Positions 564 to 15,996 of a DNA stretch of 20,739 nt are shown one piece after another. The position numbers and the translations under genes were made by a program. Source of the stretch: a virus. How positions within the stretch are numbered: the first letter of the stretch is position 1; each line of letters starts with the position of its first letter. Below the pieces are notes generated by a model. That model saw only the letters and a program-made list of their open reading frames with translations, did not search any database and was not told the DNA's origin. The stretch spans positions 1-20,739 of the IMG/VR virus record IMGVR_UViG_3300042006_000235; one strand, given 5' to 3'.

Positions 564-570
564 TGCCTAC

Positions 571-1199: not shown

Positions 1200-1230
1200 G
1201 CTTGCGTCGGTCAGGACGATGTCCTACCTT
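1200..1230 (+). promoter_or_regulatory. GCTTGCG-type promoter 1
   Basis: GCTTGCG (1200-1206; -35 TTGCGT 1202-1207) is followed by a 17-base spacer and TACCTT (1225-1230). Transcription would start near 1237, leaving a short leader with AGGAGG at 1246-1251 before the ATG at 1258. It matches four other promoters in this window in sequence and spacing. Confidence 0.7.
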
Positions 1231-1257
1231 GCGACCGTTCAACTCAGGAGGTATCAG

Positions 1258-1482
1258 ATGGACATCATCGAGACGAAGGTCGTCCGCACGGAGACGACTA
1301 AGCGCATTGAGCTCGGGTTCACAGCGATCCGGCGGATGCTGGAGGAGCAGGGCGTCGTCCTGCCTTCCAACGCTAAGATCGTCGTTGAGGTGCCGTGTGG
1401 CGGCGACTGGTCGAACACCGAGCTCGACATCGACGATGGCAACCCGGTTGTCATCAGCTGGTCCGAAGTGAAGGTGCTGTGA
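1258..1482 (+). CDS. Small conserved phage protein of unknown function
   Basis: 74 residues. The start is set by a perfect AGGAGG six bases before the ATG. The C-terminal half carries a VPCGGDWSNTELDID stretch (about 49-63) followed by a short hydrophobic strand. From memory, similar VPGGGDWSNT-type segments occur in many small phage proteins of unknown function. No enzymatic motif is visible. It is the first gene behind promoter 1, and its stop overlaps the next ATG (TGATG), so it leads a translationally coupled group running to about 3911. It is probably an early accessory protein, inferred from position only. Confidence 0.75.
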   Translation: MDIIETKVVRTETTKRIELGFTAIRRMLEEQGVVLPSNAKIVVEVPCGGDWSNTELDIDDGNPVVISWSEVKVL

Positions 1483-1931
1483 TGGAGAAGACCCTGTTCG
1501 ACGAGTTCTTCCGGCAGCGGAGTGACCTCGGGGAGGCGTCCAAGACGCCAGTCTGCGTGCTGTTCAGCGATGCAGGCTACGCGCGAGCGATGAAGGAGCG
1601 TCCGATCTCGTTCGGCCACTATAACGACCATACGATGGAGCCATGGTCCTACTGCGGGCTCCCGTACCACATCGTCCGCGGACAAGAGTCGTTGATGATC
1701 GTGAGCGACAAGCCTTACGACCCGCTCGCTGCACGTCGCACAACCGGGCCAATTACCGTACATGTCGACGGTATTGAACATCGTACCGACAAGACGACTA
1801 TTGAGCTTGTTGGCTCCAAGCTGACTTCCGATCAACTCTGCGACGTCATCACGGAGTGGACGAAGCACAACCCGAGCAGGCTCGCGGTTGCCCTCAGCGA
1901 CGCTGTGCGGCAGCACGGGAGGTTCGAATGA
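1482..1931 (+). CDS. Hypothetical protein
   Basis: 149 residues, starting at the ATG that shares one base with the preceding stop (TGATG), which implies translational coupling. The protein is mixed alpha/beta, soluble and rather acidic. It contains an aromatic patch (FGHYNDHTMEPWSYCG, about 44-59) and a Thr/Val-rich beta-like stretch at about 88-113. There is no signal peptide, membrane segment or recognisable catalytic motif. I do not recognise the family. Its stop overlaps the next start as ATGA, so it is made together with its neighbours. Confidence 0.65.
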   Translation: MEKTLFDEFFRQRSDLGEASKTPVCVLFSDAGYARAMKERPISFGHYNDHTMEPWSYCGLPYHIVRGQESLMIVSDKPYDPLAARRTTGPITVHVDGIEHRTDKTTIELVGSKLTSDQLCDVITEWTKHNPSRLAVALSDAVRQHGRFE

Positions 1932-2434
1932 TCGAGATTAAGACTGATGGAACCGATCACTCAGCGTTCCATGCGCTCCAGCGTGCTGTCTACGAGGGAA
2001 CCGTCGGATATGATCAGCTCCCGAAGCGCTACCGAATCGAGGATCCTTATCACGACGATGGTCGCCCTACGCTCGTGACGTACTACGTCGTCCGCAAGAC
2101 CAAGAGCGGTGCCTGGGTCGCTCCACGCTGGGCGGTCAGCGGTTTCGACGCGTCAACCGGCAAGGGCGTCCCGTGGGGCGAGCTCAAGCGCGATCAGCTC
2201 AGGATGGAGGGTGCTCGATTCGTCCTTGACGGCGACGGCAAGCGGTTCGCCCACGAGTCGGTCGAGTGGGCGCGTGCATCGTACAAGCGTCGGAAGCAGT
2301 GGCAGATCCGGTGGGCCCAGCGCTCCATCCGCAGGGCAGAGAACGGTCTGCACTGGCTCATGACTGGCAAGTCAATGCAGGACGAGGTGCAGGAGCTGCC
2401 GATGGCAATCAGTTGTTCGGATAGGATCTTCTGA
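1928..2434 (+). CDS. Hypothetical protein with a basic C-terminal helix
   Basis: 168 residues, with ATG in an ATGA overlap with the previous gene. The first 110 residues look alpha/beta with several Asp/Gly turns (EDPYHDDGRPT at about 38-48, DGDGKRF at about 100-106). Residues 108-140 are rich in Arg, Lys and Trp (ASYKRRKQWQIRWAQRS) and should form a basic amphipathic helix, suitable for nucleic-acid contact, though that is inference. The family is not recognised. The TGATG junction with the next gene keeps it in the same coupled set. Confidence 0.65.
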   Translation: MIEIKTDGTDHSAFHALQRAVYEGTVGYDQLPKRYRIEDPYHDDGRPTLVTYYVVRKTKSGAWVAPRWAVSGFDASTGKGVPWGELKRDQLRMEGARFVLDGDGKRFAHESVEWARASYKRRKQWQIRWAQRSIRRAENGLHWLMTGKSMQDEVQELPMAISCSDRIF

Positions 2435-2862
2435 TGACCCTCGTCCTAGTCGATCGCGACGCACTCGAGCAGCTGATCCAGGGCGATTACGCTAACCGCG
2501 AGGAGATCGCTATCGAGGGCGGCTGTGCTTCGCTGTGGGACGCCGACTGGCGGTTCCTGGACCCTGACGACGTCCTTGTGACGCTCGCGGTGCAGGCCGG
2601 CTTGCAGGTGCCTGGTCCGCTGAAGGGTCCACCGCCCGCACCTCCGATGATCAACGACACCCTGTCGAATAGGTGCGCCCAGACGTTCAGGCATCCGAAC
2701 GACAGGCGACTGCGTTGCGCTGAAGACGGGAAGGTCGTATATACGAGCTCAGGACAGGCCGAGCACGCTGCCCAGCGTATTTCCAGTCGCCAACCGATGC
2801 GGAGCTATCTCGGCAGGTGTGGTCACTACCATGTATCAAGGAACAAGCATCATGCCGATTGA
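2434..2862 (+). CDS. Zinc-ribbon-like small phage protein
   Basis: 142 residues, starting in a TGATG overlap. The N-terminal 60 residues are acidic and unremarkable; a Pro-rich linker (about 59-72) follows. The C-terminal domain (about 78-135) has the pattern C81...C95...K-V-V-Y...A..A..I...Y...C129-G-H-Y-H133. This resembles the common small phage domain ending in Y-x-C-x-x-C-G-x-W-H, thought to bind zinc. The first Cys of that terminal pair is missing here and Trp is replaced by Tyr, so metal binding may be altered. It may be a DNA- or RNA-binding accessory factor. The last 11 bases overlap the next gene. Confidence 0.65.
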   Translation: MTLVLVDRDALEQLIQGDYANREEIAIEGGCASLWDADWRFLDPDDVLVTLAVQAGLQVPGPLKGPPPAPPMINDTLSNRCAQTFRHPNDRRLRCAEDGKVVYTSSGQAEHAAQRISSRQPMRSYLGRCGHYHVSRNKHHAD

Positions 2863-3571
2863 ACAATCGAAGGATAACCCCAATCCGCAGACGGCGGAGC
2901 TGGTGCCTGTGACGCAGGCGGACGCGATCCGTTTCCTCGAAACCGCAGTGCGCAACTGGTCTCACGTTCCGGTGCTGAGCAACAGCGATGTGGATGATGT
3001 GCGGAGCGCACTACAAGCCTTCGCCCGCCACCGCCTCGCCCACGCCAAAGAGCAGGCACCGGTGCCGGGGGAGCAACATATCCTGAGCCTTCGCGCAATG
3101 CGCGACGTGGCGGTGGCCGGCAATGGTTTCCGGGAGGCGCTGGACTTCGCAATAGCAGCCCTCGCCGCCAACCCGGTGCCCGGCGAGCGCGTTTGGACGC
3201 CGCACCTTGACTATGCAGGCGAGCCGATGCGCGAAGGTGAGTTCCGCGATGCGCCCGAGGACAACCCGGTGCCCGGCGATACGGGTGGGGCTTACAGGGC
3301 GGCACTTGAACAGATCGCGAGCAACAATTGGCGGGACCAGTCGCGAGCGCGACACGTAGCCCGACAAGCCCTCGCCCATGCCGCGCCAGCCCTTGGGGCA
3401 GAGCGTATCTGCCGGGAGGCAGCGCAATGGGAACTGGCGCAGGCCGCTACTCCCGGCATCGGCAAGAAGACCGCCGACAATCACCGTAGCGCTGCGCACG
3501 CGCTTGAGATGGTCGCAGACAAGATCGCTGCCCATGCTGCGCCAACACTCTCGGATGAGCAGCGTGCCTGA
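2852..3571 (+). CDS. Repeat-linked modular protein, unknown function
   Basis: 239 residues. ATG 2852 is preferred because AAGGA lies nine bases upstream and it overlaps the previous stop by only 11 bases. The protein is a string of short helical modules joined by repeated linkers: PVPGE at 70-74, PVPGE at 108-112 and PVPGD at 139-143, then AHAAPAL at 175-181 and AHAAPTL at 227-233. The modules have an A-L-x-x-I-A...A-R-x-x-A-x-x-A-L flavour seen in phage proteins of unknown function. No catalytic residues are recognisable. The repeats suggest growth by internal duplication or shuffling of cassettes. Confidence 0.7.
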   Translation: MPIEQSKDNPNPQTAELVPVTQADAIRFLETAVRNWSHVPVLSNSDVDDVRSALQAFARHRLAHAKEQAPVPGEQHILSLRAMRDVAVAGNGFREALDFAIAALAANPVPGERVWTPHLDYAGEPMREGEFRDAPEDNPVPGDTGGAYRAALEQIASNNWRDQSRARHVARQALAHAAPALGAERICREAAQWELAQAATPGIGKKTADNHRSAAHALEMVADKIAAHAAPTLSDEQRA

Positions 3572-3911
3572 GTTCGACGACGTCCTCCGCAACGCCCTGG
3601 CTCGCATCGTCCCGCCCTCGGAGCTCAGGCTGCCGGTGATCTACGACGACCTGTCGTGGCACGAGCGTAAGGAGGTCCGCGAGGAGTATGCGCGGCGCCA
3701 GGGCAATCGGTGCTACCACTGTCAGTGCGACCTGGACGGTCCGCCGCCAAAAGCGATCACCGACTTGCCCCTCGACGTCCGGATGTTCGGACCGGTGAAG
3801 GAGTGGTGCCGGCATCCGATCCATCTTCATCACAATCACCGCACGGGGCTGACAATCGGTGCCACTCACGCCTATTGCAACGCGGTCCTGGCGCAGTACC
3901 ATGGCGAGTGA
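3555..3911 (+). CDS. HNH / endonuclease VII-like nuclease
   Basis: 118 residues. The C-terminal half carries C53-x-x-C56 (CYHCQC), then HLHHNHRTG (90-98) and H105-x-x-C108-N, ending L-x-x-Y-H-G-E. This is the arrangement of zinc-bound His-Asn-His nucleases related to phage recombination endonuclease VII: two Cys pairs around a beta-beta-alpha metal active site. Such proteins cut branched or nicked DNA, or act in packaging or homing. ATG 3555 overlaps the previous gene by 17 bases and has a poor ribosome site; GTG 3564 is an alternative start. The last conserved His of the HHNH block replaces the Asp seen in some relatives. Confidence 0.75.
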   Translation: MSSVPEFDDVLRNALARIVPPSELRLPVIYDDLSWHERKEVREEYARRQGNRCYHCQCDLDGPPPKAITDLPLDVRMFGPVKEWCRHPIHLHHNHRTGLTIGATHAYCNAVLAQYHGE

Positions 3912-3952
3912 AGTCTGTTGCAACATCTGAATTATTCTGCAAGACCTGTCGG

Positions 3953-3965
3953 TCCTGTAACAGGA
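3953..3965 (+). promoter_or_regulatory. Palindrome overlapping a ribosome site
   Basis: TCCTGT-A-ACAGGA is a perfect palindrome whose right arm contains most of the AGGAG ribosome site (3962-3966) of the gene at 3975. It lies in a 63-base gap without a GCTTGCG promoter. It contains the TGTAAC core also seen in the control region near 551-681. It could be an operator, or a very short translational hairpin. Confidence 0.35.
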
Positions 3966-3974
3966 GATGAGACT

Positions 3975-4511
3975 ATGATACATCCCTTCCGTAAGGTGGG
4001 CTACTCGGAGGCCCTCAATGTCACATTGTTCAAGGATCGCGGAATCACGGTCAACGAGAGCTACTCGCTCAGATTGATCGCTGTCGCCGACGGGAAGCTG
4101 CTGCTCGAGGTCAGGCAATCCGCCCAGGGTTGCACGCCATACGAGGTCACTGCGCGTCCCGGGGAGCTGCGTATCAACACGCGAGTCGCAGGTCGACATA
4201 TTGTACCGCCCTTCGGTGCGACTATTCCCGAGTCAGTCGAGGCTGTTCCTGGCGGTTGGAACGTCGTGTTACCGAAGGACCGGATGCGGTTGCGTAAGCC
4301 GAAGAGTGGGCCGAGGACTGTCCCGGCGGTTCCTCGTGCTGTCCCGGCGGTCCCCGTGCAGTCGGAGCGTCCTGCCCAGTCTTCACATGGGGCAACAAGT
4401 CTTCGCGATGCGGTGCGAGCAGTCAATGCGCTCAAGGACGAGCTTGGAAGCGATCTGTGCCTGTCGATCGGGGCCGACGGCAGGCTCCGTGCTATGGTTG
4501 AATACAGCTAG
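3975..4511 (+). CDS. Hypothetical protein with Pro-Val repeat linker
   Basis: 178 residues. AGGAG eight bases before ATG 3975 sets the start. The N-terminal 100 residues are beta-rich. A short tandem linker, VPAVPRA followed by VPAVPVQ (about 116-129), separates it from a C-terminal helical/beta domain (142-178) of the form LRDAVRAVN...ELG..L.L.I..DGRL. It looks like two globular parts joined by a flexible hinge. The family is not recognised. The TAG stop is followed five bases later by promoter 2, so this gene probably ends its transcription unit, although no hairpin terminator is visible. Confidence 0.7.
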   Translation: MIHPFRKVGYSEALNVTLFKDRGITVNESYSLRLIAVADGKLLLEVRQSAQGCTPYEVTARPGELRINTRVAGRHIVPPFGATIPESVEAVPGGWNVVLPKDRMRLRKPKSGPRTVPAVPRAVPAVPVQSERPAQSSHGATSLRDAVRAVNALKDELGSDLCLSIGADGRLRAMVEYS

Positions 4512-4513
4512 GC

Positions 4514-4544
4514 GCTTGCGTCTTCCGGAACGATCCGCTAGGTT
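4514..4544 (+). promoter_or_regulatory. GCTTGCG-type promoter 2
   Basis: GCTTGCG (4514-4520; -35 TTGCGT 4516-4521), a 17-base spacer and TAGGTT (4539-4544). It starts right after the preceding stop codon. The predicted start near 4551 leaves a leader of about 18 bases with AAGGAGG at 4557-4563, ahead of the 36-residue membrane protein gene. Confidence 0.75.
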
Positions 4545-4568
4545 CGGTGCGTCAAGAAGGAGGTTGAT

Positions 4569-4679
4569 ATGAAGCTGAAGTTCTTGGAGTCCGGGCCGGC
4601 TATTGTTGTGATCGGTAGCTTCTTCATCGTCTTGCTAGTCGCGCTCCGCGTGCTAGTCGCAGTGGGAGCATTCCAATGA
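4569..4679 (+). CDS. Tiny membrane protein, 36 residues
   Basis: ATG 4569 is preceded at five bases by a full AAGGAGG, the strongest ribosome site in the window, and lies just behind promoter 2. The product begins MKLKFLESGP and then has one uninterrupted hydrophobic stretch (about 10-35, with a single Arg at 27), so it should be a single-pass inner-membrane peptide. It ends in an ATGA overlap with the next gene. The function is unknown; tiny early phage membrane peptides often act on host membrane proteins, but nothing here shows a target. Promoter, ribosome site and overlap together make a real gene likely despite the size. Confidence 0.7.
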   Translation: MKLKFLESGPAIVVIGSFFIVLLVALRVLVAVGAFQ

Positions 4680-4906
4680 AGGTCCAACTGACGGACGTGC
4701 GCGGCAAGAAGGTCGTGTACGAGTTCGAGGTGCCGCCGGAGGTGTCCAAGCTGCTTGTCCGGAGGGACCAGACGGTCGCCTTCCAGGGCGTCCAGTACGG
4801 CTTCCTGAGCTCGAACGCGGAGCGGGCGAGGTACTGCCCCATGCTCCCGGCAGCGCAGCTCACTGAGGACATGCTGGAGGGGCCGGACTCGGCCACCGGG
4901 CAGTGA
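4676..4906 (+). CDS. Hypothetical small protein
   Basis: 76 residues, ATG in an ATGA overlap with the membrane peptide gene. The first 50 residues alternate charged and hydrophobic positions as in a small beta-barrel or ubiquitin-like fold (VQLTDVRGKKVVYEFEVP, then VAFQGVQYGFL). The C-terminal tail is acidic. No motif is recognised. It is coupled to the next gene through a GTGA junction. Confidence 0.65.
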   Translation: MKVQLTDVRGKKVVYEFEVPPEVSKLLVRRDQTVAFQGVQYGFLSSNAERARYCPMLPAAQLTEDMLEGPDSATGQ

Positions 4907-5049
4907 GGGTCGTCGCTCGCATTGCGATGGTCGCAGCCGGCGTCGGGGTCATGTACCTCGAGGGCCAGCATCAGCCCGCCCCCGGCATCGGGTTCGCGAT
5001 CGGGATGATCCTGATCCTCGGCGCCGTGGTCCCATGGAGGGCGCAGTGA
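4903..5049 (+). CDS. Small two-segment membrane protein
   Basis: 48 residues from GTG 4903, which overlaps the previous stop as GTGA. Two hydrophobic stretches (about 4-19 and 29-45) are separated by a short polar loop, LEGQHQPAP, so a hairpin-shaped inner-membrane protein is predicted. An ATG at 4927 is an alternative start that would shorten the first segment. There is no strong ribosome site, so translation probably relies on coupling. The stop overlaps the next GTG. The function is unknown. Confidence 0.5.
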   Translation: MRVVARIAMVAAGVGVMYLEGQHQPAPGIGFAIGMILILGAVVPWRAQ

Positions 5050-5246
5050 GCCTGCCGGGGAACGCCACCTGCTCGACATGCGTATTCTTCTGCCGTAGCA
5101 GACCGCCCCACGACCACGGCGGCCAGTGCAGGCACGATCCGCCCAAGCTATCGTTCGGGAAGGACGGCCCGCGTTCCATCTGGCCGCTCGTCTATCTTGA
5201 CTCGTGGTGCGGTCAGCATTCAATCATCGAGGAGGAAGTACGATGA
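5046..5246 (+). CDS. Small Cys-rich, probably zinc-binding protein
   Basis: 66 residues. GTG 5046 is chosen over ATG 5034 because GGAGG lies five bases upstream and the start forms a GTGA overlap with the preceding stop. The pattern C9-x-x-C12...G-G-Q-C28-R-H-D-P-P...W-P...D-S-W-C55-G is that of a four-Cys zinc site. I recall this C-x-x-C...C-R-x-x-P-P...W-C-G layout from small proteins of proteobacteria and their phages. No enzymatic function is known to me. C16 is an additional Cys. The next gene overlaps by four bases. Confidence 0.7.
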   Translation: MSLPGNATCSTCVFFCRSRPPHDHGGQCRHDPPKLSFGKDGPRSIWPLVYLDSWCGQHSIIEEEVR

Positions 5247-5629
5247 AGAAGGCGCTGTACTACGCGATCCGCACCGGCTCGCTCTACAACCCCGTCGTCG
5301 CAGTCACGACCGAGAAGCAGCACCGCTGGCACGGCCGCGAGGTGCGGGTCTCCAAGATCCTCAACGCGATCATCAGCGGCATGCCGACGCACGGCGTCCT
5401 CTCCGACCTGAGCGGGCGCTTCGAGCACGTCGAGGACGCGATCAAGACGCGCGACAGCATTGCCAAGGTCGCCGATTCCTACGACGAGGCGCGTAAGCTC
5501 CTTGCGAGGGAGAGCTCCGCCCTGTACGCTCGTGAGCGCGAGGCTATGGCGGCCCTGCTCCGCGGGGAGCCCGTCACCCATCACCCGTGGCCGCAGGTCA
5601 CGTACACTCAGAGGGAGATCAAGTTGTGA
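5243..5629 (+). CDS. Hypothetical protein
   Basis: 128 residues. GAGGAGGAA five bases before ATG 5243 gives a very strong ribosome site. The N-terminal 60 residues look like a small alpha/beta fold (MKKALYYAIR, then VVAVTTEKQHRWHG and VSKILNAIISG). The rest is helical with many Glu, Arg and Ala (about 60-108). No motif is recognised. A possible internal promoter lies inside the gene at 5502-5530. It is joined to the next gene by a GTGA overlap. Confidence 0.7.
   Translation: MKKALYYAIRTGSLYNPVVAVTTEKQHRWHGREVRVSKILNAIISGMPTHGVLSDLSGRFEHVEDAIKTRDSIAKVADSYDEARKLLARESSALYAREREAMAALLRGEPVTHHPWPQVTYTQREIKL
5502..5530 (+). promoter_or_regulatory. Possible internal promoter
   Basis: TTGCGA (5502-5507), a 17-base spacer and TACGCT (5525-5530) match the window's promoter pattern except that the base before CTTGCG is C, not G. 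It lies inside a gene, about 100 bases before the next start. Such a match can arise by chance in coding DNA. Confidence 0.2.
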
Positions 5630-6174
5630 AACTTCTCGAACACTTCAAGGCCATGCAGGCCATGTGCGCGACATTCGTTGCACCGGGCGAGTATACGGAT
5701 CGTCAGGGAAATGTCTTCAGTGACGAGGACGCCGGTTCGGATAAGCTCCGTGACCAGGCGTTCATCAACGACACGATCTACATGCTCGACGGTCCGGAGC
5801 AGCGTGAAGCCGAGAGGGCGTTCGGCGAGTTCATGGACGAGCACGAGGAGCTCCAGCGGCAGGTCGCTGAGCTGCGCGACAAGCTGGCAGTCGCCCACAG
5901 CGATCGCGGACGCGCAACTACTGCTCTCGCGGAGGAACGGCAGATCCAGAACGACCTCCGCGACCGTCTGTTCGACAGCGAGCTGGCCTACGCCAAGCTG
6001 CGCGGCTACGTCGAGCGGATCGAGGACGAGCGCCCGGTCGAGATGGTGCCCGCGCCCCGCGAGCGCTTCCTGGCGCACTCGCCTGACGGGAGCGAGGGTG
6101 CTAGCTACCAGGCGTTCGACCACTACAGCGGCAATCGGACCTCGCCGGTCAAGCGCTGGTATCATCGGTCGTGA
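5626..6174 (+). CDS. Coiled-coil hypothetical protein
   Basis: 182 residues from GTG 5626, in a GTGA overlap, with GGGAG about eight bases upstream. The central part (about 62-138) is dense in Glu, Arg, Gln and Leu (EELQRQVAELRDKLAV, RDRLFDSELAYAKLRGYVERIEDE) and should form a long coiled coil. The C-terminal 45 residues are polar and probably flexible. There is no signal peptide or catalytic motif. A structural or partner-binding role is plausible. The gene ends in a GTGA overlap with a tiny gene. Confidence 0.7.
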   Translation: MKLLEHFKAMQAMCATFVAPGEYTDRQGNVFSDEDAGSDKLRDQAFINDTIYMLDGPEQREAERAFGEFMDEHEELQRQVAELRDKLAVAHSDRGRATTALAEERQIQNDLRDRLFDSELAYAKLRGYVERIEDERPVEMVPAPRERFLAHSPDGSEGASYQAFDHYSGNRTSPVKRWYHRS

Positions 6175-6299
6175 TCCGCTGGCTGCTCCGCTACCTGGAC
6201 CGCTGGGAGGCGGGGCTCGCCCAGCTCGAAGGTCGCATGACCCCCGAGCAGCGGGCCCTCGCCTACTTCATCGACCGCGGCGGGTGGTCGCAGTGGTAG
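6171..6299 (+). CDS. Tiny hypothetical protein, 42 residues
   Basis: The frame starts at GTG 6171 (GTGA overlap with the previous stop) and ends at TAG 6297-6299, seven bases into the following gene. The product starts MIRWLLRYLDRWEAG and ends GGWSQW: a Trp/Arg-rich amphipathic helix followed by a polar segment. There is no ribosome site of its own, so expression would depend on coupling. The fit between its two neighbours and the lack of another gene in this gap support it, but the evidence is modest. Confidence 0.45.
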   Translation: MIRWLLRYLDRWEAGLAQLEGRMTPEQRALAYFIDRGGWSQW

Positions 6300-6610
6300 C
6301 AGTCCTGACCCTGCTCGCCCTCCTAGCTGGCCACGCGATCGCCGACACCTTCCTCCAGCCCTACCCGCTCTCGCAGGCCAAGCGACATCGGGACCCGTGG
6401 ATCCGGTGGATGTCCCTCGCGGTGCACGGCACCTGCCACGGGTTCTTCGTCCTCCTGTTCACCGGGATGTGGCAGCTAGGGCTCGCCGAGGTCGTCAGCC
6501 ACGCGCTCATCGACCGGGGCAAGGGTCGCGGCTGGTACGGCGACGTGACCGATCAGCTCCTCCACGTCGCCTGCAAGCTGATGTGGGTCGCGATGCTAGC
6601 CGTGACCTAG
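6293..6610 (+). CDS. DUF3307-like membrane protein
   Basis: 105 residues from GTG 6293; GTG 6284 is an alternative. The protein is hydrophobic with about three membrane segments (1-20, 43-62, 88-104). Conserved polar residues within them are of the DUF3307 kind: H14...D18-T-F-L-Q22, H45...H49, H70-x-x-x-D74 and D87...H91. DUF3307 proteins are small multi-pass inner-membrane proteins of unknown function in bacteria and phages; the buried His/Asp set suggests metal or proton handling, but this is unproven. It ends the chain of overlapping genes from promoter 2. Promoter 3 starts just after its stop. Confidence 0.7.
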   Translation: MVAVLTLLALLAGHAIADTFLQPYPLSQAKRHRDPWIRWMSLAVHGTCHGFFVLLFTGMWQLGLAEVVSHALIDRGKGRGWYGDVTDQLLHVACKLMWVAMLAVT

Positions 6611-6611
6611 C

Positions 6612-6642
6612 GCTTGCGCCAACTGCGTGGTAAGCGTAGGGT
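6612..6642 (+). promoter_or_regulatory. GCTTGCG-type promoter 3, predicted leaderless
   Basis: GCTTGCG (6612-6618; -35 TTGCGC 6614-6619), a 17-base spacer and TAGGGT (6637-6642). Only eight bases separate the -10 from the ATG at 6651, so transcription should start zero to two bases before the gene and no Shine-Dalgarno sequence can be in the mRNA. The -35 block starts two bases after the preceding stop codon. Confidence 0.75.
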
Positions 6643-6650
6643 GCCGCCGC

Positions 6651-7250
6651 ATGGAGGAGTCCCGGCCTGACTTCGACGATCTGTCGGTGCGACAGCGGCT
6701 CCGCGGAGTGAGCTGTCCTATACATCCTGACCACAAGATAGGGTTGGTGGGCGAGGCTCCGGGTCCGAGGACGCGGGCCGACTGTCCCTTCTATCCCTAC
6801 CCGCCGCAGAGTGCAGCCGGACGTCTCCTGGCCTACCTTGGCTGGACGCGTGCCCAGTACCTCACGACGTTCGCGCGCATCAACCTCCTGTCCGAGTGGC
6901 CGGGTCCGTCGTTCCCCGTGGGCAAGGCGAGGGAGTGCGTCCCGCACGTCGTGGCAGCGCTCCACCCGCGCCCGATGCTCCTGATGGGGAAGGGAGTCGC
7001 CGCCGCCTTTGGCGTGTCTGTGATCCCGCCACTGTCGCTCGTCAAGATCCCGCTCGCTCATAGGGAGCGCGGCACGGTGCTTGCAGAAGTGGCGATCGTG
7101 CCCCATACTTCGGGTCGGAACCTCTGGTACAATGATCCGGCCAACCGGCTCGCCGTGCGGGAGTTCGTCAACTCGCTTCTAGGAGGCCGGCTGTGCACCC
7201 AAGATATCCCATCCCCAGAGGTCCTCAGGACCCCGAGCCAGAGCGCCTAG
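6651..7250 (+). CDS. Uracil-DNA glycosylase superfamily-like protein
   Basis: 199 residues. The superfamily signature is visible: GLVGEAPGPRT (31-41) corresponds to the catalytic GxxPG loop, a central ALHPRPMLLMGKG strand follows (103-115), and VPHTSGRNLWYND (150-162) corresponds to the H-P-S-x-x-N DNA-intercalation loop, with Thr in place of Pro. Family members flip bases out of DNA and cut the glycosidic bond of uracil or damaged bases; several phage members have no proven activity. Substrate cannot be read from sequence. Promoter 3 abuts this ATG, and the bases before it (GCCGCCGC) contain no ribosome site, predicting a leaderless message. Its last 58 bases overlap a small gene. Confidence 0.75.
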   Translation: MEESRPDFDDLSVRQRLRGVSCPIHPDHKIGLVGEAPGPRTRADCPFYPYPPQSAAGRLLAYLGWTRAQYLTTFARINLLSEWPGPSFPVGKARECVPHVVAALHPRPMLLMGKGVAAAFGVSVIPPLSLVKIPLAHRERGTVLAEVAIVPHTSGRNLWYNDPANRLAVREFVNSLLGGRLCTQDIPSPEVLRTPSQSA

Positions 7251-7324
7251 GAGTGGGCTGTTGGATCGGCCTGCTCGTCGGGCTTAGCCTCTACGGCGGT
7301 GGTCTCTGGTGGTTCATCGGATGA
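7193..7324 (+). CDS. Tiny membrane protein, 43 residues, overlapping
   Basis: GTG 7193 has a perfect AGGAGG six bases upstream (7181-7186), inside the end of the glycosylase-like gene. The product has a polar, Pro-rich N-terminus (MHPRYPIPRG) and one hydrophobic segment (about 20-42, Gly/Leu/Trp-rich), so it is a single-pass membrane protein. Its stop overlaps the ATG of the next gene as ATGA. The excellent ribosome site and the exact overlap support it in spite of its 58-base overlap with the upstream gene. Confidence 0.65.
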   Translation: MHPRYPIPRGPQDPEPERLGVGCWIGLLVGLSLYGGGLWWFIG

Positions 7325-8253: not shown

Positions 8254-8262
8254 GAGGACATC

Positions 8263-8817: not shown

Positions 8818-8818
8818 G

Positions 8819-8850
8819 GCTTGCGATGGAGCAACGGTTACGCTTAGGGT
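8819..8850 (+). promoter_or_regulatory. GCTTGCG-type promoter 4, predicted leaderless
   Basis: GCTTGCG (8819-8825; -35 TTGCGA 8821-8826), an 18-base spacer and TAGGGT (8845-8850). Six bases (GCTGTT) separate the -10 from ATG 8857, so the A of the start codon is the expected first transcribed base. The spacer contains CGGTTACG, related to the GTTACA sites of the control region. The element begins one base after the previous stop. Confidence 0.75.
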
Positions 8851-8856
8851 GCTGTT

Positions 8857-9120
8857 ATGAGCGATGAACCGCCAGGACCCTGTCCGATCATGTTCGACGA
8901 GCCCACCTCAGACACGGGGTGGGCTGTAGTCGGTCCGATCACGTACGAGGGCCGCGTCATGCACATGCACGTCGTCCCGAACTGCGACCTGCGACATCAC
9001 CAGCTCGATCCGACGTGCTGGTGCAACCCGGTCCAGGACGAGGACGACCCGCTGCTCTGGGGCCACAACAGCCTCGACCAGCGCGAGAGGTACGAACAGG
9101 GCGACAGACGCCCCAACTGA
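8857..9120 (+). CDS. Small conserved phage protein with CWC motif
   Basis: 87 residues. The segment HVVPNCDLRHHQLDPTCWC (38-56) followed by P, an acidic stretch and LWGHNSLDQRERYE matches a small family I know from phages and mobile elements: H-x-x-P...D-L-x-x-H...C-W-C-x-P...H-x-S-x-D-x-R-E. The function is unknown; the His and Cys residues suggest metal binding. The ATG lies seven bases after the -10 of promoter 4, so the mRNA should be leaderless. If transcription began upstream, only a weak AGGG would serve as ribosome site. It is the first gene of the operon running to about 11434. Confidence 0.75.
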   Translation: MSDEPPGPCPIMFDEPTSDTGWAVVGPITYEGRVMHMHVVPNCDLRHHQLDPTCWCNPVQDEDDPLLWGHNSLDQRERYEQGDRRPN

Positions 9121-9130
9121 GGAGTGAGTG

Positions 9131-10597: not shown

Positions 10598-10992
10598 AGT
10601 GGGACCGGATAGTTCGCAACGAGGAGGACGGCGAGCCAGTGCTGTCGATCAAGTATCTCGTGTATTTTCGCGGTCGTCGGATTGACCTTCATAAAATCCA
10701 CCGGGCCGACCTGCCAAATCAGTTTCACAGTCATCCTGCAAGGATAGCTATTCGAATTATCCTCTGGGGCGGCTACGCCGAGCAGTTCTATCATGGGCCG
10801 CAGAATCGAATTTGGCGTCCCGGCATGATTGGTATCGTGCGGAACACCTGCATCCACCGTATTTCCAGGCTTCTGCGAGGACCGTCGTACAGTCTCTGGA
10901 TCCGTGGTCGCATCCGCTTTCCTACTATCCTGAAGGGTCGGGGATGGCCCGAACAGCTCAGAGATACAAGCCACAGGAGTTCTGAACAATGA
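10594..10992 (+). CDS. Phage cupin-like metal-binding protein
   Basis: 132 residues from GTG 10594 (GTGA overlap). FHSHPARIAIRIILWGGYAE (44-63) carries H45-x-H47 and E63, followed by RPGMIGIVR and C-I-H88-R. That is the two-motif layout of small cupins (H-x-H...E...H), and the H-P-x-x-x-x-x-x-I-L-x-G-G-Y form is one I recall from phage cupins. A metal site is likely; the substrate is unknown. The first half is clearly AT-richer than the neighbours (62 G/C of 120 at 10681-10800) and uses codons such as ATA, CAT and AAA more often, which suggests more recent acquisition. Confidence 0.65.
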   Translation: MKWDRIVRNEEDGEPVLSIKYLVYFRGRRIDLHKIHRADLPNQFHSHPARIAIRIILWGGYAEQFYHGPQNRIWRPGMIGIVRNTCIHRISRLLRGPSYSLWIRGRIRFPTILKGRGWPEQLRDTSHRSSEQ

Positions 10993-11192
10993 TCACGAAG
11001 GCAGGCGAGCTCATCGACCACCTCGCAGCGGCTGCGTCGCAGGGGTGCACGCCGCACCACGACGTCCGGGTCCGCATCGGGACGATCCAGGGGGCGCCCG
11101 AGTACCGCATCAGTCAGCTCAAGGGCGTCAACGACCCGCGCGGCAACTATCTGCTCATTGAGCTGTGCCCGGTGCCAGAGAGCGGCGGATGA
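10989..11192 (+). CDS. Small hypothetical protein
   Basis: 67 residues; ATG in an ATGA overlap, with AGGAG nine bases upstream. The N-terminal helix (AGELIDHLAAAASQG) is followed by a beta-like portion with DVRVRIG and NYLLIEL. It resembles short phage proteins that start with a helix and a small sheet, and I assign no function. It is coupled to the next gene by ATGA. Confidence 0.65.
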   Translation: MITKAGELIDHLAAAASQGCTPHHDVRVRIGTIQGAPEYRISQLKGVNDPRGNYLLIELCPVPESGG

Positions 11193-11434
11193 CCACGCGC
11201 AACGCCGTGCAGGTCGTGCGGGAGCTCGAGCGCCTCGCAAGGGTTGCCCAGGGCATCCAGAACAGGTACGGGGCCCACTTCTCGCTCCACATCGCCGCCT
11301 GCCTGAACAGGGACGAGCAGGAGATGCGCCAGCGGCGCGACGAGCTGCACACGATCCTCGACTCGCTGCTCGACAATCAGGAGGCGATCCAGCGGGCGAC
11401 CGACGAGCTCACGGAGCTCAGCCGGCCTCGTTAG
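11189..11434 (+). CDS. Small helical protein
   Basis: 81 residues from ATG 11189 (ATGA overlap). Nearly the whole protein is predicted helix with heptad-like Leu/Val spacing (VVRELERLARVAQG, DEQEMRQRRDELHTILDSLLDN), so it is probably a short coiled coil or helical bundle. It has no charge cluster or Cys pair that would suggest a specific role. It is the last gene of the coupled set that started at 8857; a 50-base gap follows. Confidence 0.65.
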   Translation: MTTRNAVQVVRELERLARVAQGIQNRYGAHFSLHIAACLNRDEQEMRQRRDELHTILDSLLDNQEAIQRATDELTELSRPR

Positions 11435-11460
11435 TCCTTCCTTAACTCGGCGGCGGTACG

Positions 11461-11484
11461 GGTGCATCCAGAAGGAGATGCACC
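11461..11484 (+). promoter_or_regulatory. Hairpin presenting a ribosome site
   Basis: GGTGCATC (11461-11468) pairs perfectly with GATGCACC (11477-11484), leaving an eight-base loop, CAGAAGGA. The AAGGAG ribosome site lies mostly in the loop and its last G in the stem, and the ATG at 11485 follows directly. Folding would decide access of the ribosome to the 46-residue gene. Such hairpins can serve as thermosensors or protein-binding translational operators. Confidence 0.5.
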
Positions 11485-11625
11485 ATGTACGCAGAGCTGA
11501 GTTACTTCGAGGGTTATCACTTCCAGCACATCGCCGCGTGGCAGGAGGGGCAGCGCCTTGCGCGCATCCGCAGTCAGACGGGTCGGATCCTCCGCGAACG
11601 ACGGCGAAATAGTCGTTGCATCTGA
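11485..11625 (+). CDS. Tiny basic protein, 46 residues
   Basis: ATG 11485 has AAGGAG seven bases upstream and stops at TGA 11623-11625. The product starts MYAELSYFEGYHFQHIAAWQ and ends with an Arg-rich tail (RIRSQTGRILRERRRNSRCI, 27-46). The aromatic front and basic end would suit a small nucleic-acid- or protein-binding factor, but that is inference. It stands alone between two gaps, and its ribosome site is enclosed in a perfect hairpin, so it probably has its own translational control. Confidence 0.6.
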   Translation: MYAELSYFEGYHFQHIAAWQEGQRLARIRSQTGRILRERRRNSRCI

Positions 11626-11644
11626 TGCAGAGTTGCCCTAGCGG
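11616..11644 (+). promoter_or_regulatory. Weak promoter candidate before the helicase
   Basis: TTGCAT (11616-11621), a 17-base spacer and TAGCGG (11639-11644), followed by GTAACGG. The -10 lacks its last T and the -35 lacks the GCTTGCG block, so this is a poor match. It is the best candidate in the gap before the helicase gene, which has its own TAGGAGG ribosome site. Confidence 0.25.
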
Positions 11645-11681
11645 GTAACGGTGCACAGAGCACATCTTAGGAGGTAGGAAA

Positions 11682-13337
11682 ATGAGTGACTTGAACTTCG
11701 ACGCCAGCAAGGTGAAGCCGGCCGGCGTCCCCGCTGACGACATCCAGGACCAGCCGATCGACACCGGGCGCAAGTGGTCGCCCTACCAGCAGGCGGTCTT
11801 CAGCCACATGAGCACGTCGAGCCGCAACGCCATTGTGGTGGCGGTCGCGGGGTCCGGCAAGTCGACCACGATCATCGAGGCCATGAAGCTGGCGCGGGGC
11901 GAGTCCATCTTCCTCGCGTTCAACAAGGCGATCGCCGAGGAGCTGAAGGCCCGCGGCGTCAACGCCCGCACCTTCCACTCGCTAGTCTTCAGCGCGGTGA
12001 TGCGCTTCTACCAGCAGCGCGACCCGTCGTTCGACAAGTTGCACAAGCTCACGATGGAGAACTGGTCGTTCGACGAGCGCAAGCTGTACGGCGCGTTTGC
12101 GAAGCGGCTGGTCGGTCTCGCGCGCGGCATGGGCATTGGGATCGACGGGATGCTGCCTGATACGGCGGAGGAGTTCATCGCGCTCGCGGCCTACCACGAT
12201 ATCGAGCCCGAGAGCGACCGGGCGGAATTCGGAGACGCCATCGGGTACGCCCGCCAGCTGTTCGACTTGTGCTGCGCTGACCCGCGCGTCGACTTCGACG
12301 ACATGCTGTACCGCGCCGTCCGCGACGGCATCCGCCTGCCGCAGTTCGACACGGTGTTTGTTGACGAGGCGCAGGACACGAACCCGATCCAGCGCGCCAT
12401 CCTGCACAAGATCCTGAAGCCGGGCGGGCGGCTGGTGGCGGTGGGCGACCCGGCGCAGGCCATCTACGGCTTCCGCGGCGCCGACAGCGACGCGCTGGGG
12501 CTGATCGCCAAGGAGTTCGACTGCGTCGAGCTGCCGCTGAGCATCACCTACCGCTGTGCGAGCAAGATTGTTGAGTACGTCCAACAGTGGGTGAGCCACA
12601 TTGAACCCCGCGAGGGCGCGCCGGAGGGTGTGGTCAAGGACTTGGGCGTCGACTGGAACCCGACTGACTTCCTGCCCAGCGACCTCGTCGTGTGCCGCAA
12701 GACCGCGCCGCTCGTGACCGCTGCCCTGCGCTTCATCCGCGCAGGCATCCCTGTCCAGGTGCTCGGCAAGGACATCGGCGAGGGGATGAAGGCGCTCATC
12801 AAGAAGATGAACGTCAGCACCGTCGACCAGCTGAAGGAGGCGCTCAACGCGTACCTCGACCGCGAGTTAGAGCAAGCCCGCAAGGAAGAGGACGAGGCCA
12901 AGGCGGAGGCGGTCAGCGACAAGGTCGGCGTCATCCTGTTCATGTGCGACGAGCTGCTAGAGGACCGGCGCACCATCGCTGACCTCGAGGCTGGCATCGA
13001 CTACCTGTTCAAGGACAAGGCGACGGCGGTGACGCTGTGCACCATCCACAAGTCGAAGGGGCTGGAGGCGCCGCGCGTCTTCTGGCTGGAGCGCAGCGAG
13101 TGCCCGGCGCGCTGGGTCCGCAAGGATCACCAGCGCCAGCAGGAGATCAACCTCTGCTACGTCGCCGGCACCCGCGCCATGGACGAGCTGTACTTCATCG
13201 AGCTCGAGACCGAGGAGCAGAAGGACAGCAAGGCCGCCCAGCGGATGGCTGCCGCCATCGCTCGCAAGGAGAAGCGCGCGGTGACCCGCGCAGACTTCGA
13301 CTACGCGCTGAGCGTCATCCAGGGGGAGAAGGAATAA
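11682..13337 (+). CDS. UvrD/Rep-type (superfamily 1A) DNA helicase
   Basis: 551 residues, ATG after a TAGGAGG ribosome site. All helicase motifs are present in order: Q-motif SPYQQAVF (33-40), Walker A AGSGKST (56-62), TFHS (97-100), Walker B VDEAQD (227-232), motif III VGDPAQAIYGFRGA (254-267), motif IV around TYRC (289-292), motif V TIHKSKGLEAPRVF (454-467) and motif VI CYVAGTRA (492-499). Such enzymes unwind DNA 3' to 5' with ATP, in replication, recombination or repair. The length is shorter than full UvrD (about 720), with reduced 1B/2B subdomains, as common in phages. No DNA polymerase or primase is in the window, so its partners lie elsewhere or come from the host. Confidence 0.92.
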   Translation: MSDLNFDASKVKPAGVPADDIQDQPIDTGRKWSPYQQAVFSHMSTSSRNAIVVAVAGSGKSTTIIEAMKLARGESIFLAFNKAIAEELKARGVNARTFHSLVFSAVMRFYQQRDPSFDKLHKLTMENWSFDERKLYGAFAKRLVGLARGMGIGIDGMLPDTAEEFIALAAYHDIEPESDRAEFGDAIGYARQLFDLCCADPRVDFDDMLYRAVRDGIRLPQFDTVFVDEAQDTNPIQRAILHKILKPGGRLVAVGDPAQAIYGFRGADSDALGLIAKEFDCVELPLSITYRCASKIVEYVQQWVSHIEPREGAPEGVVKDLGVDWNPTDFLPSDLVVCRKTAPLVTAALRFIRAGIPVQVLGKDIGEGMKALIKKMNVSTVDQLKEALNAYLDRELEQARKEEDEAKAEAVSDKVGVILFMCDELLEDRRTIADLEAGIDYLFKDKATAVTLCTIHKSKGLEAPRVFWLERSECPARWVRKDHQRQQEINLCYVAGTRAMDELYFIELETEEQKDSKAAQRMAAAIARKEKRAVTRADFDYALSVIQGEKE

Positions 13338-13570
13338 TGGAACTGCCCTACAAGAAGGTCGAGACGTTTCAGCTCGGAACCGACGTGTACACGACCGAGG
13401 CGTCCGCTCTCCAGGCAGCGATCGAGAAGGTCGTGGGCAACCCCGGCATGGCGTCGCAAGTGATGCGGGAGGCGTGCGCCCTCGCGCCGCTGCTCGCAAG
13501 AGCCTGCGAGCTGGGCCTCGGAAACAAGCCGGCTACAGGGGCTGAATCGGAGCCGCCAGCCCCAGCGTAG
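13337..13570 (+). CDS. Small hypothetical protein coupled to the helicase
   Basis: 77 residues. ATG 13337 shares its A with the helicase stop (TAATG), so the two are translationally coupled. The first 20 residues are beta-like (YKKVETFQLGTDVYT), followed by two helices (ALQAAIEKVV and VMREACALAPLLARACELGLG) and a flexible Pro/Ala tail. No known motif. The tight link suggests a helicase accessory factor, but only by position. A strong hairpin follows the stop. Confidence 0.65.
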   Translation: MELPYKKVETFQLGTDVYTTEASALQAAIEKVVGNPGMASQVMREACALAPLLARACELGLGNKPATGAESEPPAPA

Positions 13571-13619
13571 GGGCAAAAGAGCTGCGCGCTGCTACGTGGC
13601 GCGCAGCGAACCCCTTGCC
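13570..13619 (+). terminator. Strong hairpin, possible terminator
   Basis: GCTGCGCGC (13581-13589) and GCGCGCAGC (13599-13607) form a perfect 9-bp stem with a nine-base loop. Outer blocks can extend it: GGGG (13570-13573) with CCCC (13611-13614), or GGCAA with TTGCC. No T-run follows, so it would be a weak intrinsic terminator or an RNA end protector. It separates the helicase unit from the lysis genes, where a transcription boundary would make sense. Confidence 0.5.
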
Positions 13620-13644
13620 GGACTTTGATTCAGCATGTTAGAGG
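13615..13644 (+). promoter_or_regulatory. Weak promoter candidate for the lysis genes
   Basis: TTGCCG (13615-13620), an 18-base spacer and TAGAGG (13639-13644), followed by GTGCAC. It recalls the TAGGGTGC boxes at 6637 and 8845, but both elements deviate from that pattern. It is the best candidate between the hairpin and the lysis cassette. Confidence 0.3.
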
Positions 13645-13698
13645 GTGCACCCATCAACGGGGCCATGTGGCACGTTCCACCTGTACGGAGCTCGCCGA

Positions 13699-14211
13699 GT
13701 GTCCCTCCCCGCTGAGATCGTAAGCTCCTCGTTCACCTGGACCTCATTCTTCACGGGAGGTTCGTTCCTCGCGCTCATGGCGCTGCTGATCAGGCAGGTC
13801 GGCCCGTGGCGCAAGCAGGCTAGTGACGAGACTCAGCAACTCATCACCAACTTGCAGAACACAGTCAAGACGGTCACCACAAGGCTCGACAAGGTGGAGA
13901 AGCAGCTCCACCTTGAGCGAAAGCTGCACTTCATCCAGACTGCACGGCTTGAGGCGAGGCACGCTGCCCAGCGGGCGCTTGACCGCCACAAGTTCGTCAA
14001 TGCGGATGCCAATCTCGACGCGCTCCTGCGCATCCTGGAGGTGAGCCCGGAGAAGGCACCAGAGGCGGCCCGCCAGGCGCGCGAAGCGAGGGCCTTGCAG
14101 CGCGACACCGAGCGACTGGAGGCGGCGGAGATCCACAAGGCGGAGATCCTCGCGGTCGAGATGGCCGAACAGGAGCTCCGCGAACAGGATGAGAGGGACG
14201 CAGAGCTATGA
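13699..14211 (+). CDS. Lysis-cassette membrane protein with coiled coil
   Basis: 170 residues if translation starts at GTG 13699, which has GGAG eight bases upstream; a GTG at 13645 in the same frame would add 18 residues but has a poorer site. A single membrane segment (about 14-31, TSFFTGGSFLALMALLIRQV) is followed by a long Arg/Glu-rich helix (about 38-170) with heptad spacing. It lies directly before the 2-TM holin and the endolysin. An accessory (minor) holin or a holin regulator is likely by position. I do not recognise a named family. Confidence 0.6.
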   Translation: MSLPAEIVSSSFTWTSFFTGGSFLALMALLIRQVGPWRKQASDETQQLITNLQNTVKTVTTRLDKVEKQLHLERKLHFIQTARLEARHAAQRALDRHKFVNADANLDALLRILEVSPEKAPEAARQAREARALQRDTERLEAAEIHKAEILAVEMAEQELREQDERDAEL

Positions 14212-14570
14212 ACTTCGGTGGCCTGGCCAACGCTCTCAAAGGGATCGGCGGCGAGTTCGAGCTCAACCGGCTGGTCGGGTTCTTCGGCGGGGTAGCATAC
14301 GTCATCTGCGCCAACATCTTCGTAGGCTACGAGGTGTTCTACCTTGGCAAGGAATTCGACATCACCGCCTACTGTCTGGCGTTCCCCGGTGGGCTCGCGG
14401 TCATCGCGGGCGGCACCGCTGGCGCCATTGCCTGGAAGGACAAGGCAGTCGCGTCCGCCAAGGTCACCGAACAGACCGGCACCATCCCAGCGGCACCTCC
14501 GCAGGGACCGAAGACACCTGCCGGAACCGACGTGACGCAGCCTTCCCTTGAAGTGGACCTCGCACCATGA
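14208..14570 (+). CDS. Holin, two membrane segments
   Basis: 120 residues, ATGA overlap with the gene before. Two hydrophobic stretches (about 21-45, LVGFFGGVAYVICANIFVG, and 54-74, YCLAFPGGLAVIAGGTAGAI) are separated by a short acidic turn. The C-terminal 45 residues are polar, Pro/Ala-rich and probably cytoplasmic. This is a class II holin layout: the protein collects in the inner membrane and opens holes that release the endolysin. The position immediately before the endolysin, with which it overlaps (ATGA), supports the call. Confidence 0.75.
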   Translation: MNFGGLANALKGIGGEFELNRLVGFFGGVAYVICANIFVGYEVFYLGKEFDITAYCLAFPGGLAVIAGGTAGAIAWKDKAVASAKVTEQTGTIPAAPPQGPKTPAGTDVTQPSLEVDLAP

Positions 14571-15385
14571 TCCAGCTGACCCCTGAGCAGCGCCGCCCCA
14601 TCTTCAACGCCGCCAAAGCGCTCGGAGTGAAGTTCAACACTCAGGAGAAGGTCGACACTCTCGATCGAGGGATCAACGAGTCGCTGGCGCTCATTATGCC
14701 CGCCGCGCCGACACCTGTGGTCACACCGCCCCGCACACCGTCCGTCACCCTCGACGGGCTCAGCTGGGACAAGATGCTGCTCCTCATCACGAACGCGCGG
14801 GCTGAGGCGCTGACGGATGCTGACTTCCAGCGCGCGGCTGACGAGCTCGGCCACGGGGTGACGCCGAAGCACATGAGGGCGAGCAAGAAGGTCGAAGCGC
14901 CGCGAGGTGCGTTCGATGATCAGGGCCGGCCGTCCATTCTGTACGAGCGACACGTCTTCAGCCGGAACACGAATCCGAAGGGCAAGTTCAACGCGAGCCA
15001 TCCGAACCTGTCGGCGCTCAGGGGGTACGGCGCCGGCGGGTACGGCTCGTTCGGGGCGCAGTACGGCAAGTTGGAGCTCGCCTACGCGCTGGACCCCGAG
15101 GCAGCCTTCGAAGCGTGCTCGTGGGGGGCGTTTCAGGTGCTCGGCGAGAACGCTGTGGCACTCGGCTATCAGTCAGCGCGCGCAATGGCTGTGGAGCTCG
15201 CGACCAGCGAGGCTGCTCACCTCGACAGCTACGTCAGGTTCATCAAGACGAACAACCTTGCCGACGAGCTCGGGCGGTGCAGGGCAGGCGATCCCGACAG
15301 TTGCATCCCGTTCGTGCGCGAGTACAACGGCGAGGGGTTCCGAGGCTTCGGCTATCACATCAAATTCGCAGACGCGCTGCGCTAG
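14567..15385 (+). CDS. Endolysin, N-acetylmuramidase (DUF3380 type)
   Basis: 272 residues. The C-terminal catalytic domain (about 113-272) shows the family marks: ILYERHVFSR (124-133) with E127 as the probable catalytic acid, FNASHPNLS, GGYGSFGAQYGKLELAYALD, SWGAFQVLGENAVALGY, and near the end FVREYNGEGF. It cuts the glycan strands of peptidoglycan in the periplasm. The N-terminal 110 residues hold two short helical parts around a Pro/Thr-rich linker (45-60) and may bind the cell wall. There is no signal peptide, so export depends on the holin. It sits between holin and spanins. Confidence 0.88.
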   Translation: MIQLTPEQRRPIFNAAKALGVKFNTQEKVDTLDRGINESLALIMPAAPTPVVTPPRTPSVTLDGLSWDKMLLLITNARAEALTDADFQRAADELGHGVTPKHMRASKKVEAPRGAFDDQGRPSILYERHVFSRNTNPKGKFNASHPNLSALRGYGAGGYGSFGAQYGKLELAYALDPEAAFEACSWGAFQVLGENAVALGYQSARAMAVELATSEAAHLDSYVRFIKTNNLADELGRCRAGDPDSCIPFVREYNGEGFRGFGYHIKFADALR

Positions 15386-15394
15386 GAGGGCATC

Positions 15395-15781
15395 ATGATC
15401 CCCGCATTCCTGGTCACGAGGTTCGGCAAGACCGGCGCCAAGCTCGTCTTCTTCGGCGGCATCGCGCTCGCCCTCCTACTGGCCGCGCTGACGATCTACC
15501 TCGTGGGTCGCAGCGACGGCAAGAGGGGTGAAGTCGTTGACCAGCTCGAGCGCGAGGTGGAGGTACAGGGCAAGGTCGGGGACGCCAACGAGAACTCATC
15601 GGCCACCCGCGTCGCAGACGAAGTGCGGGCCGAACGTGAACGAAGGGAGATCAACGATGCGCTCGAAGCTACTCAAGATCCTGACCGCCAGCGCGCTGTG
15701 CGTGGCTGCGTCATCCTGCGGCAACAGGGTCGAGACACGTCTCGCATTCCCGCCTGTAGCAGATCTGAAGGTCGACCCTGA
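15395..15781 (+). CDS. i-spanin (Rz-like)
   Basis: 128 residues; GGAGG is seven bases before ATG 15395. One N-terminal membrane segment (about 15-37, LVFFGGIALALLLAALTIYLVG) is followed by a charged periplasmic helix (about 45-95). This matches the inner-membrane half of a spanin complex, which joins the o-spanin across the periplasm and fuses the two membranes in the last lysis step. The next gene starts inside this one in another frame and encodes the matching lipoprotein. The assignment rests on topology and context, since spanins share little sequence. Confidence 0.8.
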   Translation: MIPAFLVTRFGKTGAKLVFFGGIALALLLAALTIYLVGRSDGKRGEVVDQLEREVEVQGKVGDANENSSATRVADEVRAERERREINDALEATQDPDRQRAVRGCVILRQQGRDTSRIPACSRSEGRP

Positions 15782-15959
15782 GCCCGCGTACCCGGAGGCC
15801 GCCTTGCAGCCAGGCGCTGCGGGCGAGCAGGCCGAGCGCGCGTGGTGGAACGACACGCTGGCCTGGGGTCGCGCTCACCACGACCGCCTCGCCCGAGTGT
15901 GCTCCTGGGCGCGTGAGCTAGGCCTCGAGCTGCCGGACGGCTACTGCGGCCCGAGGTAA
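15657..15959 (+). CDS. o-spanin (Rz1-like lipoprotein)
   Basis: 100 residues from ATG 15657, eight bases after AAGGGAG, in a different frame from the i-spanin gene and overlapping its last 125 bases. MRSKLLKILTASALCVAASSC is a textbook lipoprotein signal with lipobox A-S-S-C, so the mature protein would be attached to the outer membrane. The rest is Pro-rich near the lipid end (AFPPVADLKVDPEPAYPEA) and then helical. At 100 residues it is longer than lambda Rz1 (60). The nested gene pair shows that the host has an outer membrane. The stop is followed at once by promoter 5. Confidence 0.85.
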   Translation: MRSKLLKILTASALCVAASSCGNRVETRLAFPPVADLKVDPEPAYPEAALQPGAAGEQAERAWWNDTLAWGRAHHDRLARVCSWARELGLELPDGYCGPR

Positions 15960-15964
15960 GATAC

Positions 15965-15996
15965 GCTTGCGTGATGCAATCTCGACCCCATATACT
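15965..15996 (+). promoter_or_regulatory. GCTTGCG-type promoter 5 (late genes)
   Basis: GCTTGCG (15965-15971; -35 TTGCGT 15967-15972), an 18-base spacer and TATACT (15991-15996). The -10 is the closest of the five to the TATAAT consensus, suggesting the strongest promoter. It would start transcripts near 16003 and leave a leader of about 40 bases before the small terminase gene. Confidence 0.75.

Follow-up and report, generated by a model that had tools for sequence, protein, structure and literature searches.

The DNA analyzed here (the window) is a 20,739-base fragment of a virus, IMG/VR record IMGVR_UViG_3300042006_000235, and the elements in question are promoter-like pairs located in the gaps between its genes, in which a hexamer starting with TTGC is followed by TA after 17 or 18 bases. 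The large terminase subunit encoded by the window is 73% and 76% identical to those of Sphingomonas phage MMDA13 and contig G001, respectively; the corresponding values are 54% and 65% for the portal and 60% and 74% for the helicase. The portal of MiCath is 52% identical to that of the window. As for Queuovirinae-type phages, identity to MMDA13, NP1, or MiCath was 71–73% for the terminase and 54–60% for the portal where a match was listed. The recognizable genes follow the order found in MMDA13, namely the divergent gap, early genes, RusA-like and dioxygenase-like genes, helicase, lysis genes, terminase, and portal. By these comparisons, the window comes from a relative of MMDA13 and the Queuovirinae. 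No DpdA match was found in the window; the arm carrying the 7-deazaguanine genes falls outside the fragment. dpdA and 7-deazaguanine genes are present in MMDA13 and in G001 (matches to DpdA, FolE, QueD, QueC, and QueE), and DpdA is present in the records of two other related contigs, L121 and L137. The phage of the window presumably carries dpdA, as its nearest relatives do.

Eight TTGC pairs were detected in the window, all on the plus strand, and they precede most gene blocks of the rightward arm (Table 1). In each of them, a -35 element containing TTG and a -10 element beginning with TA are 17 or 18 bases apart, within the range of 16–18 bases by which we recognized sigma70-type promoters, and we infer that they act as such. 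The first-pass annotation had reported five of these sites from the heptamer GCTTGCG, at 1200, 4514, 6612, 8819, and 15965, all of which were recovered at these positions. The reported spacer of 17–18 bases is correct if counted from the -35 hexamer, defined here as TTGCGN, and becomes 18–19 if counted from the heptamer. The five heptamers are intergenic, and the last four start 2, 1, 1, and 5 bases behind a stop codon, as had been noticed. A sixth intergenic copy on the plus strand, at 849, had been omitted. This copy has no TA at the proper spacing; TTGCGA at 839, just upstream, has one. The pairs at 839, 11616, and 13615 had also been missed. The -35 element of the 11616 pair shares bases with the end of the gene before it.

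Table 1. Promoter-like pairs of the window and genes to which they are related. Elements are given as -35 hexamer, spacer length, and -10 hexamer, with their first positions in parentheses for the pairs that include GCTTGCG.
Feature	Coordinates	Strand	Elements	Context
Promoter-like pair	564..593	-	TTTACG-18-TAGGCA	leftward; divergent gap; without TTGC
Promoter-like pair	839..867	+	TTGCGA-17-TAGAAG	inside divergent gap; overlaps the GCTTGCG copy at 849; putative promoter
Pair with GCTTGCG	1200..1230	+	TTGCGT-17-TACCTT (1202/1225)	heads block starting with gene 1258-1482; putative promoter
Pair with GCTTGCG	4514..4544	+	TTGCGT-17-TAGGTT (4516/4539)	heads block from gene 4569
Pair with GCTTGCG	6612..6642	+	TTGCGC-17-TAGGGT (6614/6637)	heads block from gene 6651
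Pair with GCTTGCG	8819..8850	+	TTGCGA-18-TAGGGT (8821/8845)	heads block from gene 8857
Promoter-like pair	11616..11644	+	TTGCAT-17-TAGCGG	before helicase gene; no full heptamer
Helicase gene	11682..13337	+		PHROG 1967; 60% and 74% identity to MMDA13 and G001
Promoter-like pair	13615..13644	+	TTGCCG-18-TAGAGG	before lysis block; no full heptamer
Pair with GCTTGCG	15965..15996	+	TTGCGT-18-TATACT (15967/15991)	before terS
Terminase small subunit gene (terS)	16044..16454	+
Terminase large subunit gene	16451..17788	+

The number of copies of the heptamer is by itself unremarkable. GCTTGCG occurs 10 times on both strands of the window, for a mean of 6.2 (standard deviation 2.6) in shuffled sequences, 12 of 100 of which reach 10. 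A generic sigma70 scan of the window returned two matches for 2.2 expected, none of them at the sites, which do not match the TTGACA/TATAAT consensus. Both observations would be accounted for if the motif were a product of chance, or another kind of gap signal, rather than a promoter set. The placement of the motif makes this very improbable. Gaps represent 1309 of the 20,739 bases of the window (6.3%) according to a hand-made gene list; all six copies on the plus strand fall in these gaps, and the four on the minus strand all fall outside them. The binomial probability is 6 × 10–8 for six of six and 1 × 10–5 for at least six of 10; here and below, P values assume independent sites and include no correction for ancestry, the locus being the unit only in the label shuffle. 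In addition to strand bias and gap placement, the presence of a partner at 17–18 bases and its recurrence with this partner at matching gene borders in the relatives argue against chance.

For this comparison, gene borders in relatives and hosts were defined with our own simple gene caller, which recovered all stops of the first 25 MMDA13 genes (25/25) and, of the 39 entries on the hand-made list for the window, 35 stops and 32 starts. On the coding strand, TTGCG–TA pairs were found in 12 of 30 gaps in MMDA13 and 9 of 24 gaps in G001 (versus 1 and 0 in antisense), in five gaps in each of the contigs L120 to L122 (1–2 on the opposite strand), and in five gaps in L137 (0 on the opposite strand). 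The proposal that one promoter type heads successive blocks is, in this respect, well supported by the gaps of MMDA13 and G001. The pool of sphingomonad-type phages was limited to five of the 33 sequences examined, namely the window, MMDA13, G001, L121, and L137, the host being known for MMDA13 only. In the 94 gaps of this pool, TTGCG pairs were present in 34 (3 in antisense) and TTGAC pairs in 3. The spacing peaks at 17–18 bases in the relatives. Alignment by eye revealed that both the helicase gene and terS are preceded by a TTGC pair in each of the five phages, with TTGC kept and the spacers partly diverged. The TTGCG signal was weaker or absent in G004, G005, L123 to L125, and most of L127 to L145. 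On these sequence comparisons, the set of promoter-like sites is real and conserved.

Promoters of the presumed hosts were compared by motif discovery in gaps. From neutral seeds, 266 Sphingobium gaps yielded gCTTGCG-17-GCTATAGG; genome G050 yielded cTTGCC, and three pooled sphingomonad genomes (686 gaps) yielded CTTGC-17-gcTA, the fourth base being C in 64% and A in 26% of the cases. A clear peak was observed at spacing 17 in sphingomonad gaps both for TTGA (31) and for TTGC (49). By these motifs, the GC extension and the 17–18-base spacing of the phage pairs are host-like, which agrees with the host sigma-factor preference suggested in the first-pass annotation. The near-absence of TTGA is left unexplained by that suggestion. 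Promoter-like TTGA and TTGC occurred in a ratio of 51:88 in the sphingomonad hosts, the same as elsewhere in their gaps, versus 5:48 in the five sphingomonad-type phages (P = 1.5 × 10–4). If a sphingomonad sigma70 favoring gCTTGC were simply copied by the phage, this preference would fall short of accounting for the scarcity of TTGA because the hosts use both tetramers. Furthermore, TTGC is also found in relatives that infect Pseudomonas and enteric hosts, and a small sample of 21 gaps from the Sphingobium phage Lacusarx leans toward TTGA (4:1 at spacing 17). We therefore consider host preference alone to be rather unlikely. Two other approaches were discarded. Whole-genome pattern counts in sphingomonads and other Alphaproteobacteria gave matches below or near the reversed control, the signal being swamped by coding sequence, and were replaced by the analysis of gaps. 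Motif discovery in Pseudomonas G010 returned one very strong repeat-like pattern, and its spacing counts leaned toward TTGA without a clear peak.

The bias of the fourth base was then compared between phage groups. At spacing 17 followed by TANNNT, the TTGA:TTGC ratio was 0:17 in Pseudomonas relatives (NP1, MiCath, and Iggy) and 6:22 in enteric and Vibrio relatives (Vid5, CAjan, 9g, PSTCR4, and VhaS-tm; Seurat and CSP1C, which resemble CAjan, were excluded from this group, CSP1C being included in motif discovery). The ratio was 11:3 for lambda, P22, Chi, and Jersey, in which no DpdA match was found in the stretches examined. Since C after TTG is common to relatives with Pseudomonas and enteric hosts, whose -10 element follows the host, the cause probably lies in the phage lineage. 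No usable signal was obtained with seven Pseudomonadaceae prophage loci, D3, and YuA.

The same comparison was extended to IMG/VR contigs divided according to identity to the DpdA of MMDA13, Chi-like contigs being those with no DpdA match. Contigs shorter than 8 kb were dropped, leaving 79 of 80 DpdA contigs and 58 of 77 Chi-like contigs, and gaps sharing at least 30% of their 12-mers were counted once. For DpdA identity of at least 60%, promoter-like TTGA:TTGC was 4:52; in the remainder of these gaps the ratio was 74:97, and the A:C ratio after TTG inside genes was 1.01. The promoter-like ratio was 10:32 for DpdA identity of 50–59% and 31:8 in Chi-like contigs. The TTGC bias of contigs with DpdA identity of at least 50% was similar across three bins of G+C content. 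Counted per locus, C exceeded A in 27 of 32 loci and A exceeded C in 1 of 32 for DpdA identity of at least 60%, versus 2 and 17 of 21 loci, respectively, for Chi-like contigs; none of 20,000 shuffles of the locus labels matched this difference. Motif discovery in Chi-like gaps led to a T-rich pattern from a neutral seed and kept TTGACA when seeded with it. A general scarcity of GA was rejected as the cause because it is too weak, with GA odds ratios of 1.00 for DpdA identity of at least 60% versus 1.14 for Chi-like contigs.

The single G of the -35 hexamer TTGACA is the G read by region 4 of the sigma factor. TTGACA includes the dinucleotide GA, and TTGC does not. DpdA of phage CAjan has been reported to modify G in GA and GGC (PMC8306585, citing Kot 2020), and the modified share of G is about one third in CAjan and one quarter in 9g (PMC8594841). 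The exclusion of a modifiable GA from the -35 element would explain the TTGC pattern. In the explanation that we favor, although with no better than even confidence, the sites would be read by the host vegetative (sigma70-type) RNA polymerase, each of them heading one gene block. The GC before TTG and the 17–18-base spacer would be features of the promoters of the presumed sphingomonad host, and the C replacing A after TTG would belong to the phage lineage. DpdA would place 7-deazaguanine at GA, hence on the G of TTGACA, and TTGC would escape, such that this type of DpdA would largely exclude TTGA whatever the host. More generally, and with somewhat less confidence, phages with 7-deazaguanine at GA that infect sphingomonad, Pseudomonas, enteric, and Vibrio hosts may have replaced TTGA by TTGC throughout their genomes, thereby keeping their modified DNA readable by the host RNA polymerase. 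The possibility that such modifications block sigma factors was raised by Hutinet and colleagues, who set it aside in view of the AT-rich site (PMC6884629).

Several observations weigh against a causal role of the modification. DNA of MED16, which contains amido-deazaguanine, is still cut at sites containing GA (PMC8306585), implying that modification need not block a protein. T1 and Rtp, for which no DpdA match was found in the stretches examined, have a TTGA:TTGC ratio of 2:7 at spacing 17. The ratio was 16:11 in IMG/VR contigs with DpdA identity below 50%, RHEph06 and M39 (DpdA identity of 44–45%) use TTGAC, and a preference for TTGCG is missing in certain relatives with DpdA, such as L125. 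Phages without dpdA on record gave mixed results (7:12 for relatives by large terminase subunit and 2:6 for relatives by helicase), and TTGC therefore also occurs outside the dpdA phages. In these data, dpdA is confounded with lineage. On the host side, the motif from Sphingobium gaps is a weak one (log-likelihood 64.1, versus 46.8 for an antisense control of similar consensus), and motif discovery in genome G045 gave no clear motif. Finally, C outnumbers T as the fourth base (52:12 in contigs with DpdA identity of at least 60%), an excess beyond mere avoidance of A that suggests positive recognition.

The preference for C over T as well as over A is what would be expected if a factor encoded by the phage and conserved in the lineage steered the host RNA polymerase to TTGC promoters, the alternative put forward in the first-pass annotation. 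The domain family of MMDA13 gp37 and gp59, matched in 68 and 64 of 80 DpdA contigs, respectively, and predicted to be a small helical domain, provides a candidate, and the record of phage YuA describes repeats as sigma70 promoters requiring a phage cofactor. Neither gp37 nor gp59 has a match in the window, RHEph06 matches both proteins and M39 matches gp37, yet these two phages use TTGA, a fold search with the gp37-type domain found nothing significant, and the pair retains ordinary sigma70 spacing. Such a factor appears unlikely, slightly more so than host preference alone. The family (gp37, its paralogue gp59, and L326:6424-6732 and relatives) has a Lys/Ala-rich leader, a pLDDT (predicted local distance difference test) of 80, and corresponds to PHROGs 18634, 11298, and 21588, which are groups of unknown function. 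A sequence search with the gp37-type domain gave nothing below an E value of 0.3, and its predicted fold had no Foldseek match below an E value of 1, the best VIA match (Z 5.3) not being informative.

The pairs share features with known promoters. Alphaproteobacterial sigma70 promoters also have TTG in the -35 element, a commonest spacing of 17, and a -10 element that begins with TA and often does not end with T (Myers et al., 2021, PMC8407463). In the phage pairs, C occupies the fourth -35 position almost without exception; the portion of that paper used here does not give this base. In MMDA13, whose gaps hold the same TTGC pairs as the window, 23 intergenic promoters were predicted with Bprom as putative sigma70 promoters (PMC7472734); neither a consensus nor a TTGC bias is given in the portion of that account used here. 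Pseudomonas phage YuA, according to its record, also carries copies of a single conserved element at several of its gene borders. The YuA elements differ in being 28-base repeats annotated as cofactor-dependent, and the YuA gaps show no TTG–TA spacing signal. T4 middle promoters combine a TTGC-like core, the MotA box, with an ordinary downstream -10 element. The MotA box lies about 12–13 bases before the -10 element, as opposed to 17–18 bases here. No report of a TTGC -35 element in these phages was found in the titles and abstract starts of the open-licence PubMed Central papers retrieved. The novelty lies in a change of one base in the sigma70 -35 element, running through a phage lineage, rather than in a new class of promoter. 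If the favored explanation is true, this lineage-wide shift to TTGC is a sequence trace of a conflict between DNA modification and the host polymerase. It would also permit promoter prediction across a large group of phages for which a generic scan fails, and the one-base prediction is testable in E. coli K-12.

Other features were observed in the vicinity of the pairs. The -10 elements of the 6614 and 8821 pairs are separated from ATG 6651 and ATG 8857 by 8 and 6 bases, respectively (6637-6653 and 8845-8859). With transcription expected to begin about 7 bases past a -10 element, the predicted starts are located 2 bases ahead of ATG 6651 and on the A of ATG 8857, so the corresponding mRNAs are possibly leaderless. 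The gene caller favored a later start, 8890, over 8857. In the divergent gap, the palindrome GTTACAGTAAC at 552-562 adjoins the -10 element of the leftward promoter-like pair, and the corresponding gap of MMDA13, also divergent, has two copies of TTAC[AT]GTAA (47869 and 47976); the palindrome may be an operator of the lineage. CtrA-like paired TTAAC sites, which were also considered, were absent from the window and found twice in MMDA13. Rfam and tRNA scans of the window and a Pfam search with ten of its proteins returned no match. Positions 13571-13614, located after the helicase block and before the promoter-like pair of the lysis block, contain an inverted repeat, GCTGCGCGC..GCGCGCAGC, which is terminator-like and has no T run. 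The gene at 10594-10992 matches PHROG 4786 (cysteine dioxygenase), and its counterparts in MMDA13, L121, and L137 are 60–62% identical.

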